DNA from: Adineta ricciae
Lineage: Eukaryota > Rotifera > Eurotatoria > Adinetida > Adinetidae
DNA: 64,000 bases
Assembly: GCA_905250025.1 (NCBI GenBank)
Contig: CAJNOJ010000001.1
Coordinates: 496,001 to 560,000, forward strand
Reading direction: 5' to 3'
This document shows positions 12,050-55,222 of this stretch, in pieces (positions within the stretch are counted from its first letter, which is position 1; every line of letters starts with the position of its first letter). The notes beneath the pieces are model-generated. The model was not told the DNA's origin. It searched no databases and saw nothing but the letters and a program-made list of their open reading frames with translations. Position numbers and translations under genes: made by a program.

Positions 12050-12664
12050 ATGTCAACATACAAACTCTATTATTTCAACGCTCGTGGCCGTGCTGAAATT
12101 TCTCGTTTAATATTTGCAGCTGTCGGTCAGAAATTTGAAGACGTTCGTTATGCATTCCGTGACTGGCCAGCACATAAAGCCGAAACACCACTGGGTCAAA
12201 TACCTGTTCTTGAATTCAACGGTATTAAAATAATTCAATCAACCAGCATCGCGCGTTTTCTTGCTAAACAATTCCATTTAGCTGGAAGAGATAATGCCGA
12301 ACAAGCGAAAGTCGAAGCCGTTGCTGATACAATCAATGATGTTGTCTCATTGATTATGTCCATTCGTGGAGAACAAAATGAAAACAAAAAACAAGAACTA
12401 CTGCAAAAATTTAGCAACGCGTTGCCGCAACATGTAAGAAATCTGGACGTGTTGGCTAAAATGTATAGTAATGGTGGTTATTTCTTTGTTGATAATCAAT
12501 TCACATGGGCGGATTTGTTCTTTTATGATCTTGGAGAAACAATTCTTCAATGCGATCCAAATGGTCTGCAGAATCATCCTTGGCTACAACGAAATCGTAC
12601 ACAAGTAGAGAGACAACCCAGAATAGCAGAATATTTGAAGAATCGACCAAAAACACCTTTTTGA
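12050..12664 (+). CDS. Glutathione S-transferase, sigma-like class
   Basis: Cytosolic enzyme that conjugates glutathione to electrophiles; sigma members also act as prostaglandin D synthases. The gene is a single exon of 204 aa, the usual cytosolic GST length. The thioredoxin-fold domain begins [20 protein letters not shown], placing the catalytic Tyr at residue 7 or 8. The cis-proline site follows in [10 protein letters not shown], and the glutathione-binding Gln-Ser pair in [13 protein letters not shown]. The all-helical C-terminal domain has the conserved [10 protein letters not shown] segment. The YxxYFNxRGRAE start and overall length favour the sigma class over mu or alpha. Nothing is missing. 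Confidence 0.93.
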
Positions 12665-34677: not shown

Positions 34678-35763
34678 CTATAAGGCAACATGACTCTTTT
34701 CAGTTTGTTTAGGTTCCTTATGTTTCTTGTATGTCCGCGTACTTGATCGTGCTGAACTGTTCGTTTGTCGAATACTGCTCTCCAATGATCTTTCGTCATA
34801 ATCGATCATTGCGTCCGGACAAAAGATTCGATAACAACATAGTGAATTGAGAAACGCTCTCAATTCCTGCCGAAAAAACGTTCCACTTGCGCAAAAAAGA
34901 ATAAAATTAACTGAATGACATAGGTAGAACAATAAACGCAATGATGTCCATTGTACGCGAAAGCCAGGTTGTAATTGATAGAGCGGTGGTGCAACAGCAA
35001 GAAAAATCGATGCTGGCGAGGTTAGAACTGTATAGAGAATACTGACAGCGTATAACATTCGTGTGACTGAACGTTTTTTATGCGTTGTCGAACGTGATCG
35101 TCTTGATGCTTGTCGAACAGTTCGTACAAGTAAAGCATTGCCGAATAGAATGATTGCTAATGGTATAATTGTATACGCTACAAGTGACAGTTTTGGATAA
35201 ATTTGACTGCGAAAATGATAGTATTTTTTATGACGAAATTTATTCACAGTGCATTCTAATGGCGCTTGATCGGTTAGTGGGCGTGTATCCGAATCAGTTA
35301 ACTCATAATAGATGAGTAGGTGTAGTTCTGCTAAACAAGCGAATAGAATGCAAGCAAATAATTGGATGCAAGTCGATTTTAATGAGCATAGAGCAATTTG
35401 ACTGACATATAAATAACGTTGTAGTGTCACTAAAGCTAATAATAATGGTGCTAGACGAAGAAAAACATATGTGAGATAAATATGTGTTCGACATGTAAAG
35501 GAGTTGATGGTTCGAAGGTCTAAATTGAATGCATCGATTAAAAATTGTCGTAGTAGGCCTGTATAACATGTGCCCATTTCCGCGACGCATAAGACGGCTA
35601 AGTAGATTGATGTTGTTTGTTTACGAAGTCGTGGTCGAATAAGAACCAGAAATGAGATGGCATTACCGATACCACAGCCCAGTAAGATGAGTGGTGTTAC
35701 GATACTTGACACCCATCGGGTTAAATTTACATGCGACTCGGTTAATGAGTTATTCATAATCAT
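34678..35763 (-). CDS. Orphan rhodopsin-like GPCR, intronless
   Basis: Single-exon frame of 361 aa from ATG at 35763. The N-terminus has Asn-linked glycosylation sites (NNSLT, NLT). Seven hydrophobic segments are visible: the first has GCGIGNAISFLVL (TM1 GN motif), and the second is YLAVLCVAEMGTCY. After TM3 the sequence reads LQRYLYVS, so the Arg of DRY is kept but the Asp is Gln. TM6 lacks the usual CWxP motif, and TM7 reads VNFILFCASGTFFRQEL, keeping N but with PxxY changed. The basic, Ser-rich C-terminus is cytosolic. It resembles invertebrate peptide/FMRFamide-type receptors in layout. The ligand is unknown. Confidence 0.85.
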   Translation of the reverse strand: MIMNNSLTESHVNLTRWVSSIVTPLILLGCGIGNAISFLVLIRPRLRKQTTSIYLAVLCVAEMGTCYTGLLRQFLIDAFNLDLRTINSFTCRTHIYLTYVFLRLAPLLLALVTLQRYLYVSQIALCSLKSTCIQLFACILFACLAELHLLIYYELTDSDTRPLTDQAPLECTVNKFRHKKYYHFRSQIYPKLSLVAYTIIPLAIILFGNALLVRTVRQASRRSRSTTHKKRSVTRMLYAVSILYTVLTSPASIFLAVAPPLYQLQPGFRVQWTSLRLLFYLCHSVNFILFCASGTFFRQELRAFLNSLCCYRIFCPDAMIDYDERSLESSIRQTNSSARSSTRTYKKHKEPKQTEKSHVAL

Positions 35764-39320: not shown

Positions 39321-41116
39321 TTACAATCGTTGGGGGGCGTTTGGTGTTGAGACAAGTTTCAATTTGATATACTCATATTTTTTACTCGAACGCTGTTTCG
39401 AAGGTTTTGATACATGAACAGACACTTCCGATGGCAACGTATTCGGTTCTTCTTCATAGTTCTTTCTTCGAACTTTTGAGTGTTGCCATTGACAATAGCA
39501 TGACAGATGCTGTCGTATGGGATGAATCCAACCTTTCAACATTCGTTCTAGCTCATGACGGAAACGCTTTGCCGCATAACAGTACAAGAGTATATTCGAC
39601 ATGGAATTGAGTAAATCGAAAAAGGCTAAGAATGGATGATAACGACGTAGAAAGTCGGGACAATCATCACCAATTGCGACTGACCGATGGCAAAAGTTGA
39701 TACTCAAAATAATGTCGACGAGCCAAGAGTTGATCACTGATAAAAGACATTCGATTGTGATAATTAGGATCACTCGGTGTGTTTCGGCCGTTCGGTGAAA
39801 TACCGCCGATTGCTTATGAACAGAGTTTCGTATGTTCAGTATCCAACGGAGTGATATGGCGTTACTTAAGATAGTCAAAATCGATGGAATAATACTTCCG
39901 ATAACTAAACAAATCGACATGTATTGAATTTGATGAACTGATTGAAATTTTCTCGAAACTTACCCAGTATGATCGTGTAGCGATTGAACGCGAGTACACG
40001 TGAATAGAGTAGATCGTATAAATTTAGAAATAAATCTGGCTGTAGTCGTACGAGACATGTGTGATAATGGTATTTCAATCGGAGCTCATTCCGAGCCATT
40101 TTACTGTTAAGAGTAGCTAATTGAATTTTTTGAATGAAAGATACAATAGATCGTTGGTGCATGTCAAAATAATGACCTAATAAAAAGATGTTTTTTTCAG
40201 ACTTTGAAAGGATATTTCTTAACTAGACTGTGAAAATGCTCTGGTGACAGTCTTCAAATATGTTTACGATATCGCGAGAAATCGAATTGAACAGAAAGGA
40301 GTCTCTAAGTAACAAAGGTAATATGTTTGGACATCTCAGAAAGGTCTCTCAAACCTAGAATCATTCGGAGCCCTTTTGAAACGTTCTTTTTCTTCTTTGT
40401 GACAGGTTGTGTATCAGAAAACTCAACAGATACTTACGAGCTATACGTTCAACTTCTTCGTACGAACAAGCTGAGCGGTTGTTGATCAGACAATCAATTT
40501 CATATTGACTTGCTGAATTGCTCTGCATGAAACTCATTAACAAATTGGTCTCATTGGGGAAATGCTTGTATAAATAATCATACCATTGATACGCGGTTGT
40601 TGAACTGAGTGTCACAGAACAGAAAATGCTTAAACCGAAGAATTCCAAGATGTATGCGGAGAGAAAAGCGATGAAAATAATCACAAATGCAAATGATCTT
40701 GACGATGAATTTCGTTGAATTAAACGAAATGATGTTCGACCCATATCATAAGCACGTTGAATAGCCAAGCAGGACATAAGTATCAAAGAAAATCGGATAT
40801 ATAATTCATAATGACACAGAGGAATGAAGATCTGAGGTGCAGATTGACTAAAGTATGCGTAAATCTTAATGAAGAACGTCGATGAACATGAAGATTGAAA
40901 AAGAAATTGTTGAAATAATGTGTCTTGATAATATAATAGTTTGATCACACGAAAGTTCAAGTAAATACAATCCACAACTAGTAAAGTCACGAAGAATGGT
41001 GTTAAAAGTGATGATCGAAAACGTTTACGCAAGAATACGCAAATGCACAAAACATTTCCTAGACAACCCATAAATATAAGCGAAAAGATGATCCACGTAC
41101 ATGATTCAAAGAACAT
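39321..41116 (-). CDS. Orphan rhodopsin-like GPCR with long second extracellular loop
   Basis: Three exons (41116-40438, 40176-39964, 39904-39321) join in phase to 491 aa. TM1 has MGCLGNVLCICVFL with the GN motif. The TM3 end reads LAIQRAYDMGR in place of DRY. TM4 (SFAFVIIFIAFLSAYILEF) is followed by a loop of about 130 residues encoded partly by the middle exon. TM5 contains LVIGSIIPSILTILSNAI. TM6 and TM7 (DLLNSMSNILLYCYAAKRF) follow, with a Cys/Ser-rich cytosolic tail ending near KLVSTPNAPQRL. The TM7 NSxxN/Y element resembles peptide receptors. The loop is unusually long for class A. Ligand unknown. Confidence 0.82.
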
Positions 41117-45945: not shown

Positions 45946-48900
45946 CTATCGAATATAGAACGGTTGTCCTCTCTTCTTGTGATGCCAAGACTCTATTCTA
46001 GGAATCAATCGTTCAGCCATTTTCAGTACTTGAGGTGTTGATGCATTTGAAGTAACAATGATATCATACGGTAAATCCGATCTGCGATAATATGGTGGTG
46101 TTGAACTTTTTTGTAACGGAACAGGTGCCGGTAAGGTCAACATGGATGAATATGATGCTATCGGAGGTGACGGTACTGATATTTGTGAGTCACCTTTTAC
46201 CTGTATTGTAGATTGCGATGATTGGATGTACAATGCACCTATTCTTTCCATGACACTAAGAAATCGTGTAAAAATACCAATGGGCAACTTGACCTGATAT
46301 GCAAGTTTTAATTCATCACTGAGTAGCGTATATGTGCTCTTTGAATGCGACGTACACATCTTATAAAGTTGTATTAACGCTCGACCATCCATTTTCTCGC
46401 ATAATGGCATGAGTTCATGAACACGATTATGGAACAGAAAGTCTAAAACATCTTGTTCTGTCCAGTTGTAAATATGTTTACGATCGAAGTCAAGTCTTGC
46501 TTTTCGTTCTGTATAGACGTTCGGTAACTTGCCCGATAGTACACTTGCAGGTGATGGTGGTGGTGGTAATGATACCGACGCTGCCGATGGTTTTTCGACG
46601 ACAACTTGGGTAATTGCAGGTTTATTATCTGGTTTTTCGTGTTGACCCATTTTACCTTCTTTAGATGGCAATGGTCGTTTGCGCTGCAGAGAGATCTCAT
46701 TCATAAGTTTTTCACATGCTGTATCAAAGTCGAATCGGCCAAAATCAACATAAATTCGCGATCCAATCATAAAGCCTAACCAGCCATCTGGTCTATATCC
46801 TGGTCTCACAATCAATGGTAACAATCGTCGTTTACATCCGAATGCATATTCGGCTTCCGCTTGACAATATGTACTTTGTTTGTACGAATCTGACATACAT
46901 AAAAGTACGAACTCGGAGTTTTCAACTGCTTCCGCCATGGCACTCATTGCTAAGAATGATAGAATGCAATATTTATCTTTCGGTCAAATCATTTCTACCT
47001 GGTCCGAACATATTATTCAAATCTATCCATATTTTAAAGCCTTGATCAAGAAGAAACTGATGAATCTTGTAAATTAGATCTTTATCAGCGTGACAATACG
47101 AGATCATCATGTCATACTGAAAGGTTTGTTCAGCTGGTGCAATATCAACTCGTTTCGTTTTCGTTACAATTTGTTCTTTACCATCAGGTCCAATGATGAC
47201 TTCTGTTGTTTCTATTTCTTGTTGTTGTGAACCTTCAGCCTCATTTTGTTGATTCTTTGCAACTTTTTCCAAGAATGCGGGTTCTGAAATAGTCAACGTT
47301 ATCGTGATCGAATGAACTTTCTTTTACAATGCAATACCTTGAACAAGTTTCCAAACTAAGCCATCCGAAGCTTTTTTCGTTCCTTCGTCATTGGAGTTTT
47401 TTGAAATATTTTGAATTTTTTCAAGAAATTCAGGATGATTTCGCAGTTGGAGTGCTCCGTTTTGAGAAAATGACAATGCCCATAGTGTTTCTAATAATAA
47501 TGTTAATAAATCTCCTTGAAACTTTTTCGTACACTCCAATAGAAATGTTAATTCATTTTGTTTCAGTATTTCTTCTTTAATTTGATCATGTTGACTGAGA
47601 CCTTGAAAAACAAACCAACATAGTCATGTTTTTCTCATTCTGATGAGTATTTACCTTTGAGTATCTCTAGTAATTGTGATACTTGTGATTCATCATTCGA
47701 TTCATCCCCGAACACTACTTCTTTCAATGATCGGGTGACCGTTGACAAGAGTTTACCTGGATTTTGCATTTCTTTAATATCTTTTTCGGAAGTTGTATAT
47801 GCGAGAATTGTATAGATATCATAAACTAGTGGTTCGTATTTCGCGGACGTCAATCGTAAGAATGTCGGTGCCATATTCTTCTGTTTAATATGTGCTAAAA
47901 CAGTCGGCTCAGCGATCATGTTTGCTAAGAAATGAACTGCTGAGTTCATTAACATTGTTTCTGGATTAGAAATGTTTTCAGCAAGTTTATTGTATAATGA
48001 AGATGTATTGATGATTGTCAGGATGTGATCAATAAGAGGTAAATGCGCAACGAGTAGTTTTGGTGTAGTTGGGCCGTGATTGATGAGTGTGATTAACTGT
48101 GCAACAGCACGCTTGGTGAATGGTTTCCATTTCTGAATAGAAAATATTAATTCGTTAAATAAAGTTAAATACTGTGGTAACATCGTTGATAGTAAACTTT
48201 CCATAGTTTGTTCTAAACGTGAACCTAGTAACAATCATATCGAACTGTTTTTCTTTTGTGTCAAGGCGGTATAAAGATACGTACCGTGATACGAAGTAAG
48301 AAACGAAGGACATTTGTGAAGAAAAAATCTTTCCTGCATTTTCGTTGTTTTATTGCTGCTTCCCTGTTTGCTGAATAGATCAACATATTGATCGGATTTT
48401 AGACATTGAACAACAGGATCGATGAGTTGATTCAAAACATCTTTATTGAAGGTTTTTTCTTTTTCTAAGCACGTTCCGTATTTTATGTAAAGATCAAATA
48501 AACGCATGAAACTTCTTGATTCACGTTGATTGTTTTTCTTGGAGAGCCGATCGGATTGGCTGATATCTGTTAGAGACCCTGCGACCATTTCTAGCAGAAT
48601 AGGGTTGAGTAACCAAGTGGGATATTGATTCAATTGAGTAACGTTTCGGAGAAGTTTTGTTAGTAGTCGTATTATCGAACGAAATAGAAAAACATCGTTT
48701 TCATTCAGTGATGATTCTCGTCGCCATTGTCGCAAATATTGGACCAATGGTGCGCGTAATTGTTGAAAAATACTATGTCGAGCAACTGTTGCTAATGTTG
48801 ACGTTTTTACGGGGATGAGTGCTGAGAGAAATTCTTGAATATTGTTGGTATTCTGTTTGGAGTTCTCACCAGTGTTCAATTCATTTTGAATTTGATCGAG

Positions 48901-49374
48901 TAGATTTTGTAATTCCAGCGTGGAAATGCTCTGCGCCTTTTGCTTAATCGTTTGACAGTGTTGTGACAAGACGCTCGATGTTGATTTCTCTAGTTTATTA
49001 TTCTTTGGTGTCACTGTCCGATAATCCCCGTTCATATTGTTACGTTGTGCAATGGGTCGATGCACGCTCCCTGACAATTCGTACTGCCTGGAAGGTTGCT
49101 GAGAAATTGGAGCAGGACTGTATGGTGGAGTTGCTTGATACTGTTGAGGTGACGGTGGTATGACTGGTACAGGATTATATTGTACATTTGGTTGGTAGAT
49201 CGTTGGCGGAAGTACATACTGTTGAGTTGGTTGATATATCATTGGCGGAAAACTGTACTGCTGAAGTGACTGATACGGATTAGGCATCGGCATGTACTGC
49301 GGTAGTATTTGGTACATATTCAACATCTGACTATACTGTTGATACGGTTGTGGCATATACTGGTACTGGTACAT
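45946..49374 (-). CDS. ARM-TIR-SAM protein (SARM1-like domain set, permuted order)
   Basis: Five exons (49374-48285, 48224-47655, 47601-47338, 47283-46999, 46949-45946) give 1070 aa. Residues 1-105 are Tyr/Gln/Pro-rich repeats (QYMPQPYQQY). About 130-640 is helical armadillo/HEAT-like sequence. A TIR domain at about 695-850 begins FQYDMMISYCHADKDLIYKI, with box-2-like GFKIWIDLNNM and STYCQAEAEYAF, placing a candidate catalytic Glu at 768. After a Pro-rich linker a SAM-like domain follows (about 893-975, IYNWTEQDVLDFLF). SARM1 is ARM-SAM-SAM-TIR and cleaves NAD+ through its TIR; the same chemistry is inferred here. No death or LRR domain is seen, so a Toll receptor is excluded. Confidence 0.87.
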
Positions 49375-50076: not shown

Positions 50077-52557
50077 ATGTCTACCGCAGAAAACGAGAAA
50101 TCCACTGCGGCAGTTGTTAATATCTGGTCACGTTTTCGTAAGAGTCTCAAGAAAGAAGAAAATGAAGCATCTAACGAACAAGATGATAAGAATTCCGTTT
50201 TATCGGCAGTCGAACGGCAAACTGAAAATTCAAGAAAAGGCGGTACTATTTGGGAAGCTGTGCGCAAAGCTGACGAAGAAGCATTTAAACGTCTTGTCAC
50301 ATTGGATCCGCAAAATGTCAATGCGCGCGGACCTGTCGGCGAATGTCCCGCTCATATGTTGTTTTTGTATGGAACTGACACTCATTTGAACATGGCTCGA
50401 TATTTGATCAAAAACTTTCCTTACACAATAACTCAAATCTACAATCAAGCTGTAAGAAGATTCATTCGATCTCATTTGGCGATTCGGGCTGTTTTGTTTT
50501 TTTAGGAATACTATGGCGAAGTTGTTCTTCATATTGCGATTATTAAACGAAACCCGACTATGGTTGAGTGGTTATTAGGTGAGGACCATAATGTCGCATA
50601 CCAAGAACAACAATTAACGGCCGCTGCGAGTGGAAACTTTTTTAAAGTGTAAGCTTTTGTTTATCATGTAAATTCGTGTGCTAAGACATCGTTTTCTAGA
50701 GGGCGACCATGTTATTACGGTGAGACGCCATTGGCATTTGCTTGTTGCACAAACCAATGGAATATCGTGGAAATTTTATTGAAATATGGTGCTTCGATGG
50801 ATGCAGTTCGTTCTTTTTTTGTCCCATTTATGAAATTGAATGAATATATTTAGGTTGATTCTAATGGAAATACTGTCCTACATTTATTGGTCATTCACAA
50901 TCTGCCAAAAATGTACACGAAGTTCAAGGAACGTTGGATAGCCGAACAAGAACCAGATAATTCCGATGATGAAGAAGATGAACTTTATCAAATTGAAAAG
51001 AAACGCATTGTTCCAATATGGAAACGTCTGAATAAAGATGGCTTTACACCGTTGACACTAGCAGCAAAATTAGGTCAAGCCGAAATGTTCTCATTTTTAC
51101 TTGAAGAACGTAAGATTGTCCAATGGAGCTTTGGCCCAGTCGCATGTGTACTTTATCCACTCGATCAAGTTGATTTAGAATTTCGAGAAGATGTAAACTT
51201 GTAGTTGTCTGAGAAATTCTTATGATTTCTTGAGTTTTCACTTAGGAACTTGAAAGTACGGCGGGCGCGTTGGAAATCATCGTGCAAAATGCACATGTCG
51301 AATTGATTATGCATCCTAGGATGATCGATTTAGTGAATAAAAAATGGGAACGTTTTGCCAGAACAATCTTCTTCAACCGATTTCTAGTTACATTTTCGTA
51401 CTTAATGGTCTTTCTCGTTACGACTATTCTCGATCAAACACGAATCGAAACGGTAAAACGATCTGTAGACTTTAAGTTAAACGCGTGAATAGCTTATTTC
51501 GTTTAATTGTTATATAGATTGAAGGTGACGGCGATGACGCTGTGGTCACAAATATAGAACCTCCAGGAATGATTATACAAGTCATCTGTGCGTTTGGTCG
51601 TCTATTTGTTTTGGCTGGGGCGATATGGAAAGGACGAAACGAAATAAAAGAAATGACTAGTTTAGGTGTGAAGAAATACTTTCAAACAACGGTAAAATTA
51701 TTCTTTGATTTTTCTCTCATTGACTATTCCGATTGCAATACAGGGTTCTGGTCTTTTGGAAAACTGTCTTTCACTATTATTTTGTTTGTGTATATACATC
51801 GTGAATATTCTACGAATGTTTGGTATGCGAGCAGAAACAGCTGCTTTGGCATTTGCATCAATTATTGGCTGGGGTTATATGCTTTTCTTCGTCATGGCAT
51901 TCCGTTTAACTGGACCGTTCGTTGTGATGATCTACGAGATGTTATTCAATGATGTTCTACGTTTTTGCGTTATCTACGTCGTGTTTCTGGCAGGATTTTC
52001 ACAAACATTCTTTGTGCTATTCGAACAAAATGGTAAAAATCAATTTCCAATAGAAAACTCAATAACTCGATCGTCATTTTAGGTTTTGGCGGTTTTCTTG
52101 TCAGTGTGAAACAATGTTTTCTAGGCATGTTAGGAGATTTTGATCTTGACGCTTACACGGAAACATCATATCGATATATCAGTGTAAGCTTATTGATCTT
52201 CTATATCATTGTCGTCACAATTTTATTACTGAACTTACTTGTCGCTATGATGGGTGATACATACGGAAATATCATCGAAGGTGCAACACAAGTCTGGTTA
52301 GTAGACCTATGGGTTGTACTTCGATGTATTGAAGAGATTTTTGTGAATGTTTTAGGCATTTGGAACGAGCACGAATTGTTTTTGCTATCGAAAACGAAAT
52401 GTCCAATGAGGACCGGAACTTACCATCGAATAAATACTGGACAAATATTGATGGTGAACGTTATTTACAAGTCGAGGAAGTGGATGACAAAGCTTTTCTT
52501 GGAGATGGTGATGGAGAAGGCGGAGAAGAAGAACAAAAGAAAGAAGAATCAGACTAG
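50077..52557 (+). CDS. TRPV-type cation channel
   Basis: Nine exons (50077-50451, 50506-50648, 50700-50805, 50854-51192, 51246-51452, 51518-51691, 51744-52032, 52083-52296, 52356-52557) sum to 682 aa. The N-terminal half holds ankyrin repeats (GETPLAFACCTNQWNIVEILLKYGA, DGFTPLTLAAKLGQAEM). Six membrane segments follow, starting at RTIFFNRFLVTFSYLMV. The pore region reads VKQCFLGMLGDFDLDAY, with GMLGD like the GMGD filter of TRPV1-4. S6 is IIVVTILLLNLLVAMMGDTY, the TRPV hallmark, followed by a TRP-box helix (TQVWHLERARIVF). The acidic tail ends EEQKKEESD. The layout is like invertebrate OSM-9/Nanchung/Inactive channels. AATAAA lies at 52630-52635. Confidence 0.92.
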
Positions 52558-53030: not shown

Positions 53031-55222
53031 ATGATGATGAGTGTGGCATATTCCGATACAAAGCAATGGACATGTAAGATATGTACATTCTCAAATTACA
53101 TATCAGCATACCCAGAGTGTCATGTGTGTCAACGAATCGATCCGCTGCTGATTGAAACCAGTTACTTAGAAATACCAGTGGTAAAATCTTACTTATAGAA
53201 AATGTATAAAAAAATTTTATTATTTTTAGAGAGACTCGAAAACAGTGACGTCTCTGGCGGTAGGCAATCGTCAAAATCAAGATGAAATCGATGCAAGAAA
53301 AAGTTTCAATGAAATTATCTCATATTGTCGACAAGTATTTCTCGCCTGAAATTGTTGTTCAGTTTTGTGATAGGATTCTTTTTCTAGGTGAAAACCAACT
53401 TCGTTGATGATCAGTTTCTTCCATCATCTCGTTCGATTGGCTATAAGACTGAAAATGATCTCCAATGGTTACGAGTTTCTCAAACACGCCCATTATCATT
53501 GCGAGAAGACAAGTATTTGACTTGGACCGTTTATTCATCACCTTCGCCTGCTGATATTCAGCAAGGAATATTGGGAAACTGTTGGTTAATGGCAGCGTTG
53601 AGTTTGATTGCGGAACAGCCGCATATTGTCGAACAAATTGTCTTAACTAAGATGATCAACGAAGAGGGAGCTTATCTTGTACGCATCTGTTATAATGGTG
53701 TTTGGAAAATAATACTCGTCGATGATTATTTTCCGTGTACAGTTCATAATCAATTAGCATATTCTCAAGCAAGTCGTCACCAGATATATATTCCATTAAT
53801 TGAGAAGGCATGTGCGAAACTATTTGGTTCCTATGCAGAATTATGCAGTGGATTTCTCGAAGAAGGTCTGCAGCTATTAACAGGTGCGCCATGCGATTGT
53901 ATCAATATTAATCGAGATAGTGATGAATTCCAAAGTCATACTATTTGGGCAAAACTTCTATCAGCTTGTGAACTTCGGTATGAGCGTTGATTTACTTCCC
54001 TAGTTTGCTTATTCGATTGACTTGCTTTAGATTATTAATTGGTGCATCAACGGGTTGTACCAATGTGACCGAAGAGGAATACCGTGAGGTAAATATAAAC
54101 CCTAACCACGCGTTTTCTATTCTTGCTGTCTGTGCTCTTTCAAATATCTCTATGCAATTTGTACTCGTGCGTGATCCACATGCAGCTACAAATTATTGTG
54201 AAATACTGATAACACCGCTAATTCTCGCTCAATTAAATTCTTCTATTCAATTTTCTCCACCGTCAGGTGCCTTTTGGATTTCGTGGCCACTCTTTCTTCA
54301 ATACTTTGCTTCAATTACGATATCATCTTATCGAAGTGACTATTATGATGTACGACATGTTGCTCAATTTACTCGCTCATCAAAAGAATCCATTCCAACA
54401 TTTCAGTTCTATGTACCAAAGTAGCAAAATTCATGGAAACAAACGTTGAATGACTTCATTTTGTCTTTCAGAAAATCATTGATTACTATTAGTCTCCTTT
54501 ATCATCGTCAAAGTCGTTGGTTACCTTGCTCCCACACACAATGCTTTGTCTTATGCGATATAAACGATCGACAAATGAGAACTCTTGGCACCCATTTATC
54601 AATCCTACAAACAGATCGTCGTTCGTTTACACAATGGACCGGTTCATTAGAGTCAGGCTATTACATACTTATACCATTCTCCACTACCTTTTGGAATGAA
54701 GAAAATTGTGAACTTCAACGAGATTATACAGTTGTTGTACATTCGAATGTTCAATTCGATTTGCAACTAGTTATTGAACCAGCAACAGTTCTCACCGATT
54801 GCTTTATTAGCGCTATATCAAAGCGAGGCAGTTCAATAACTCAGGTTAGTTGGTAGAGAACTTTCGTAATCTAAAGAATACTTTCCCTTTAGGATCAATG
54901 CTTTAATTATTATGTCATACGCGGTCCATCGGATTTTTTTCTTTTTATCGCAGAAAACTTGTCTACAATCGATTATTTAAACATTGAATTGGACTTGAGC
55001 GATTCAGCTTGTATACAAAGTTCTCGTCAAGCATTTATCACTCACGACTGCATTCCACCGCATCACCGACAAGTTATATTTTTTATGGAATGGACTGATA
55101 CGCACAACAGAACTCCCCGTTTTCAGTATACTTTTGATTATTCCTACACTAGACTAGCAAGTCAATCCATACCAGTCATCGATATTTATCAGCATGATTT
55201 TCATTCATATCGTTCGATTTAG
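53031..55222 (+). CDS. Zinc-finger calpain of CAPN15/SOL type with altered active site
   Basis: Exons 53031-53180, 53230-53334, 53388-53977, 54031-54420, 54472-54844 and 54893-55222 give 645 aa. The first exon encodes a RanBP2-type zinc finger (QWTCKICTFSNY...CHVC), which with the FVDDQF segment places it with CAPN15/SOL calpains. The protease core keeps the catalytic Cys150 in GILGNCWLMAA and His308 in NPNHAFSIL. Where other calpains have RNPWG, this has RDPHA, so the catalytic Asn is Asp (about 330) and the following Trp is His. The C-terminal region is diverged beta sequence. AATAAA is at 55254-55259. It may be a weak protease or a non-catalytic calpain. Confidence 0.85.

Follow-up and report, generated by a model that had tools for sequence, protein, structure and literature searches.

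ARM-like, TIR and SAM-like domains in an order unlike that of SARM1 in an expanded gene family of Adineta ricciae

Does a protein that carries the domain types of SARM1 in a different order belong with SARM1, or does it represent another kind of TIR protein? The question is raised by a gene in a 64,000-nucleotide stretch of the genome of the rotifer Adineta ricciae (hereafter, the window). SARM1 and TIR-1 are NAD+ hydrolases with the order ARM-SAM-SAM-TIR, so that the TIR domain comes last, after two SAM domains. The predicted product of the window gene appears to contain the same types of domain, but its TIR lies between an ARM-like region and a single SAM-like domain. An earlier note on this DNA had described the set of domains as SARM1-like, in a different order. 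We examined the gene, its paralogs across the genome, and the relationships of each domain.

Gene structure and family

The window gene is intact as judged from the DNA alone and is a member of a large ARM-TIR-SAM family (Table 1). When the exons were joined, the coordinates, strand, residue numbering (C765, E768) and domain order given in the earlier note all proved correct. Its central claim, that ARM, TIR and SAM occur in one protein with the TIR between the other two, also holds, and the order is fixed across paralogs. Several paralogs encode the end of the ARM region, the TIR and the SAM within one open frame, for example a frame of 403 aa on contig C171. Since several paralogs hold both TIR and SAM in one frame, the DNA refutes the idea that these two belong to different genes. 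An arrangement produced by chance or by mis-joined exons was ruled out by the colinear paralogs together with these single-frame copies of ARM end, TIR and SAM. Intron 4 has a counterpart at or near the same place in three paralogs (C13:331k, C13:336k and C182), and at many other loci the TIR lies in a single frame without an equivalent of this intron. On contig C225 (L049), one 941-aa frame spans ARM, TIR and SAM; parts of the ARM and TIR appear twice in it and two X positions are flanked by repeated sequence, which is probably an assembly fault.

Table 1. Features of the ARM-TIR-SAM gene, in window coordinates
Feature	Position	Strand	Details and evidence
ARM-TIR-SAM gene	45946..49374	(-)	5 exons, 1070 aa; GT-AG model without internal stops; paralogs colinear
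Exons 1 to 5	49374-48285, 48224-47655, 47601-47338, 47283-46999, 46949-45946	(-)	
Intron 1	48225..48284	(-)	60 bp, GTACGT...TACTAG, frame kept
Intron 2	47602..47654	(-)	53 bp, GT-AG, frame kept
Intron 3	47284..47337	(-)	54 bp, GT-AG, frame kept
Intron 4, within TIR	46950..46998	(-)	49 bp, GT-AG
Tyr/Gln/Pro-rich N-terminus, residues 1-105	49060..49374	(-)	22 Gln, 22 Pro and 16 Tyr among the 105 residues
Putative ARM/HEAT-like helical region, ~residues 180-641, exons 1-3	47338..48837	(-)	family profile A3; Pfam ARM/HEAT in paralogs
TIR, ~residues 696-830, split by the 49-bp intron (46998-46950)	46669..47122	(-)	Pfam TIR_2 E 1.5e-20; PDB TIR matches
E768 codon (YCQAE)	46855..46857	(-)	opposite Glu of SARM1 WVHKE by hhalign
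Putative SAM-like domain, residues 895-975	46234..46476	(-)	35/35 genome matches 3' of a TIR; PDB SAM matches of family profile

Other genes are recognizable in the window. Beside the ARM-TIR-SAM gene, exon-like frames at 50077-51204 (+) resemble by eye an ankyrin-repeat/TRPV-type channel, the first of them having no Pfam match. A rhodopsin-type GPCR lies at 34678-35763 (-) (7tm_1, E 1.5e-13), and two further frames, at 39321-39920 and 40361-41116 (-), look like GPCRs by eye alone. A calpain protease exon (53388-53990, +; Peptidase_C2, E 2.1e-40) and a glutathione S-transferase in one open frame (12050-12664, +; GST_C_3, E 2.6e-15, and GST_N, E 3.4e-12) are also present.

The fixed order of the domains was evident across the whole 130-Mb assembly of 1033 contigs, in which the window is contig C1 496001-560000. 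The 81-aa SAM of the window gene matched 35 places, and for all 35 a TIR match on that strand lies upstream, at a distance of 49 to 2917 bp (median 178 bp). Given a limit of 3.5 kb for calling a SAM behind a TIR, the chance for a random place is about 0.0017; the order therefore cannot be attributed to chance. A second SAM query found 28 places in the genome, 25 of them behind a TIR. By profile comparison, ARM-TIR-SAM was recovered at 26 of 29 distinct TIR loci taken from the best 30 of 130 TIR matches (31 loci were scanned, three of which, L001, L009 and L012, are all the window gene). The exceptions were one locus with ARM and TIR (C94) and two with TIR alone (C126 and C146:191k). The alignments behind the profiles were hand-picked from the fetched loci (A1, 10 rows; A2, 9; A3, 6; A4, 17) and excluded the near-identical L044; the A4 profile was itself built from 17 of the 29 loci, and 9 of the remaining 12 matched it. 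The two TIR-alone loci (C126:16194-16571 and C146:191193-191573; L032 and L038) are near-identical frames of 615 aa and represent related TIR genes that lack the SAM tail; by eye, each frame ends with the TIR and has helical-looking sequence ahead of it.

The family is large. Searching with the window TIR returned at least 130 genome matches and Pfam TIR_2 at least 140 (150 scored of 176 candidates), numbers that are lower bounds and count exons, not genes. Seven of the 29 loci are clustered in some 32 kb of contig C19, and tandem arrays of this kind would fit the birth-and-death expansion typical of immune families. TIR_2 arrays are found on the same contig around 328-340k and 356-360k. SAM matches also follow TIR matches at C13:472.8-477.8k and at C483:32-43k, where several of the TIR frames are broken by stops; these may reflect unmodelled introns or decaying copies. 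Because the genome has dozens of such genes, the window gene is probably one of an expanded set of intracellular switches that act in immunity or stress.

Divergence is unevenly spread over the protein. Compared with the paralog at C13:331k, the TIR is 83% identical with dN/dS of 0.057, and the SAM 40% identical with dN/dS of 0.21. Identity is 41% in the ARM region, where dS is saturated, and 27% in the N-terminus. As these are simple Nei-Gojobori estimates at high dS, only the ranking is meaningful. The TIR is under strong constraint, and the pattern as a whole suggests an effector that stays fixed while the sensor parts drift. The first 105 residues have the Tyr/Gln/Pro-rich composition that had been claimed for them. 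A counterpart to this segment was found in one of ten paralog models, again at C13:331k, where it is weak and Tyr/Pro-rich; the starts of the ten models lack transcript support, and an upstream exon was possibly missed in those with no counterpart.

The TIR domain and its relatives

The identity of the TIR domain is certain: the window protein scores 74.4 bits against Pfam TIR_2, for which the gathering cut-off is 28. We aligned a nine-row family TIR profile to the human SARM1 TIR, using a query sequence identical to PDB 6wpk, with hhalign. E768 faced the Glu of the SARM1 motif WVHKE, which we take to be E642, consistent with the proposal that the window TIR keeps a Glu at the catalytic position. 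Among the fetched loci, Glu occupies this column in all 33 rows with a residue there, representing 29 of 29 loci (37 distinct rows were compared, 4 of them gapped at the column, and some loci gave several rows). The neighbouring E770, unlike E768, varies among aligned paralogs. The Trp of WVHKE is replaced by Tyr in the window TIR and by Asn in some paralogs. All 9 aligned members share a family signature, Y.(P/A)DGWLG (residues 788-795 of the window protein), which is not seen in the aligned SARM1 sequence.

A conserved Glu permits catalysis without demonstrating it, since over 70% of TIRs have a Glu at this position, which need not track enzymatic activity; it is present in over 90% of the TIRs of TLR1/2/6/10, which have no reported activity (PMC7075850). 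These TLR domains bear on a scaffold adaptor as a possible, if less likely, alternative, in which the ARM and SAM regions would bind partners and the TIR would build MyD88-like signalosomes without enzyme activity, E768 having a structural role or one in TIR-TIR contacts. The searches of the PDB with the TIR profile are also in keeping with a scaffold. The best match was the CRISPR-associated TIR protein Cat1 (9mud, E 1.9e-8), closely followed by a TLR (4.5e-8) and MyD88 (~6e-8), so that MyD88 and this TLR fit the profile about as well as Cat1 and far better than SARM1; weaker matches were plant RPS4 (3.6e-5), C. elegans tir-1 (0.0014) and human SARM1 (0.04-0.09). When the window TIR was used as a single sequence, the best match was a Hydra Toll-receptor-related TIR (0.003). 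However, MyD88 has Gln at the E768 column, where the family has Glu at every one of its 29 loci, and Pfam scans of the window protein listed no death domain. The best match itself, Cat1, speaks for an enzyme, as it is a prokaryotic effector that consumes NAD. Its likeness to the family is a likeness of the TIR, consisting of the best profile match and a Glu in the same WCxxE-type place.

The same scores bear on whether the window gene might be a SARM1 orthologue in which the SAM has moved behind the TIR while the ARM region retains the same NMN/NAD sensing. The three shared domain types and the alignment of E768 with the catalytic Glu would suit such an origin, as would the human SARM1 TIR query, which found no match, and hence no separate SARM1 TIR, in the genome, although this search was run without a positive control and is uninformative on the presence of SARM1. 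We nevertheless regard a permuted orthologue as very improbable. Human SARM1 and tir-1 match the TIR profile far less well than Cat1 does. In place of the BB-loop motif of the SARM1 group, E(R/K)LEAG, part of which matters for catalysis, the window TIR has NNMFGP, and the EE-loop motif of that group, H(D/E)YQ, occurs in 0 of 9 aligned family TIRs (motifs from PMC7075850). In SARM1 orthologues, which form TIR group 24 of the same survey, the TIR is C-terminal, following SAM and/or ARM (PMC7075850), whereas the window TIR is not C-terminal. SARM1 is present at about one gene per genome and has two SAMs, whereas the family considered here comprises dozens of genes with a single SAM. No SARM1 chain was among the six PDB matches of the family ARM profile.

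A specific kinship with SARM1 was rejected on the profile scores together with the BB- and EE-loop motifs. The interpretation offered in the earlier note thus stands with respect to the three domain types and an order unlike that of SARM1, while a specific kinship of the TIR to SARM1 is not supported, as Cat1, a TLR and MyD88 outscore SARM1 and the SARM1-group loops are absent. The window protein may work like SARM1, and an enzyme with a SARM1-like mechanism is a fair hypothesis, but in most of the features compared it differs from the SARM1 group.

Two further searches were made for relatives. Genome-wide matches to SAM_2 and SAM_1 (36 and 38 places, respectively) included none near a TIR match when the lists were read by eye, the nearest pair being about 28 kb apart on C186. 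Tandem SAM pairs, considered as a sign of a SARM1 gene, were rejected: no TIR match lay near them, and the three clusters inspected look by eye like other genes, presumably liprin-alpha, liprin-beta and caskin. Small introns and SAM-gene clusters resembling several copies of liprins would suit a bdelloid rotifer. Searches of prokaryotic and viral contigs with two short family peptides, which can detect only close relatives, gave 24 and 90 pattern matches, respectively, among which no relative was confirmed.

The ARM-like region and the SAM-like tail

The helical region ahead of the TIR appears, at the level of the family, to have an ARM fold. A Pfam scan of the window protein alone recognised no ARM family. 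Six ARM regions of the family, by comparison, included one with a match to ARM_ARMC5 (4.2e-5) and one with a match to ARM_PUB (8.4e-5), as well as matches to HEAT families. The six PDB matches of the ARM profile were weak, the top one being a designed helical bundle (0.026); designed armadillo repeats matched the C-terminal part of the profile at E 0.81 and above. A single-sequence AlphaFold model of exon 2 of the region was too poor for use (pLDDT 49.9).

The tail behind the TIR likewise appears, at the level of the family, to have a SAM fold. If it were instead a helical domain peculiar to the family, the protein would be an ARM-TIR of the usual kind with an extra tail of its own. Several results lean this way. 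Pfam reported SAM_PNT in the window protein at E 0.056, below detection, and the window tail reached 14 bits against a SAM cut-off of 24 (cut-offs being displayed for the first member only). A ten-row SAM profile had a best PDB match of E 0.29, and the resemblance is confined to the first half of the domain (W....V..FL...G..L). A single-sequence AlphaFold model was again too poor (pLDDT 54.8), and none of its 39 Foldseek matches had E <= 0.001 or was named SAM. A 17-row profile, in contrast, had as its top PDB match the SAM domain of sphingomyelin synthase 1 (5.8e-4 over the whole chain, 0.011 over the matched stretch). It also matched the SAM of SARM1 (0.41), and most of the 21 listed chains were weak; we take 19 of the 21 to be SAM/PNT proteins, several of them the same protein. 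Pfam SAM_3 matched the best of the 17 members at 3.7e-4. SAM_2, SAM_3 and SAM_PNT recurred in 4, 3 and 2 of the 17 members (E up to 1), and ten other families appeared in one member each. A family-specific tail that is not SAM seems unlikely.

A candidate TIR switch and its setting

Together, these observations appear most consistent with a lineage-expanded cytosolic switch, in which a TIR enzyme is restrained by the ARM region and assembled by the SAM, with a role in immunity or stress. We give this reading, in which catalysis is a prediction from sequence, a probability of about one half. The fast-evolving ARM-like solenoid, with its variable N-terminus, would sense a ligand or partner and restrain the TIR until then. 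A linker connects the SAM-like domain at the C-terminus, which would assemble or recruit subunits. Upon release, the TIRs would pack together and use E768 either for cleavage of NAD(P)+ or for production of a signal derived from NAD, in the service of an immune or stress response. SARM1 requires self-association of its TIR (PMC8635717), and its octamer is kept inactive by ARM-TIR contacts (PMC8635717, PMC8494770).

A bolder form of the proposal is that the dozens of ARM-TIR-SAM proteins are SARM1-independent, NAD-consuming intracellular immune switches and a second animal TIR-enzyme architecture; we put this forward tentatively. With an ARM sensor ahead of the TIR and a SAM assembler behind it, the geometry of such an NAD-consuming assembly would have to differ from that of the SARM1 octamer.

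Related combinations have been described in other animals. Molluscs (Crassostrea gigas and Aplysia californica) have proteins with an Armadillo-type fold and a TIR that fall outside SARM1 and MyD88 (PMC9334734, PMC4346834); the Aplysia ARM-TIR genes number 10 in the text and 11 in the table of one report (PMC9334734). In the available text of these sources, neither a SAM behind the TIR nor the domain order is mentioned. The amphioxus gene model Brafl1_131196, which is expressed, combines TIR and SAM, its ARM part and order being undescribed in the available text (PMC2575513). Both likenesses are by description, not by sequence. As ARM-TIR in molluscs and TIR-SAM in amphioxus are already reported, ARM-TIR-SAM is a variant on known themes. 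The ARM-TIR-SAM order itself was not found in the literature on TIR-SAM, ARM-TIR and domain order, in a search that lay mostly outside subscription papers, and we claim no novelty for it; no title among the rotifer and bdelloid TIR papers listed by the search treats this architecture.

As of 2020, SARM1 was the sole animal TIR with known NADase activity (PMC7075850). A large animal family with a Glu at the catalytic position of every examined locus would test whether TIR-enzyme defence is widespread in animals, as it is in plants and bacteria. The different order of its regulatory domains would also test whether restraint by ARM and assembly by SAM are independent of position. If the bolder reading is true, animals would have a TIR-enzyme architecture besides that of SARM1, and its expansion would resemble that of the TIR immune receptors of plants.
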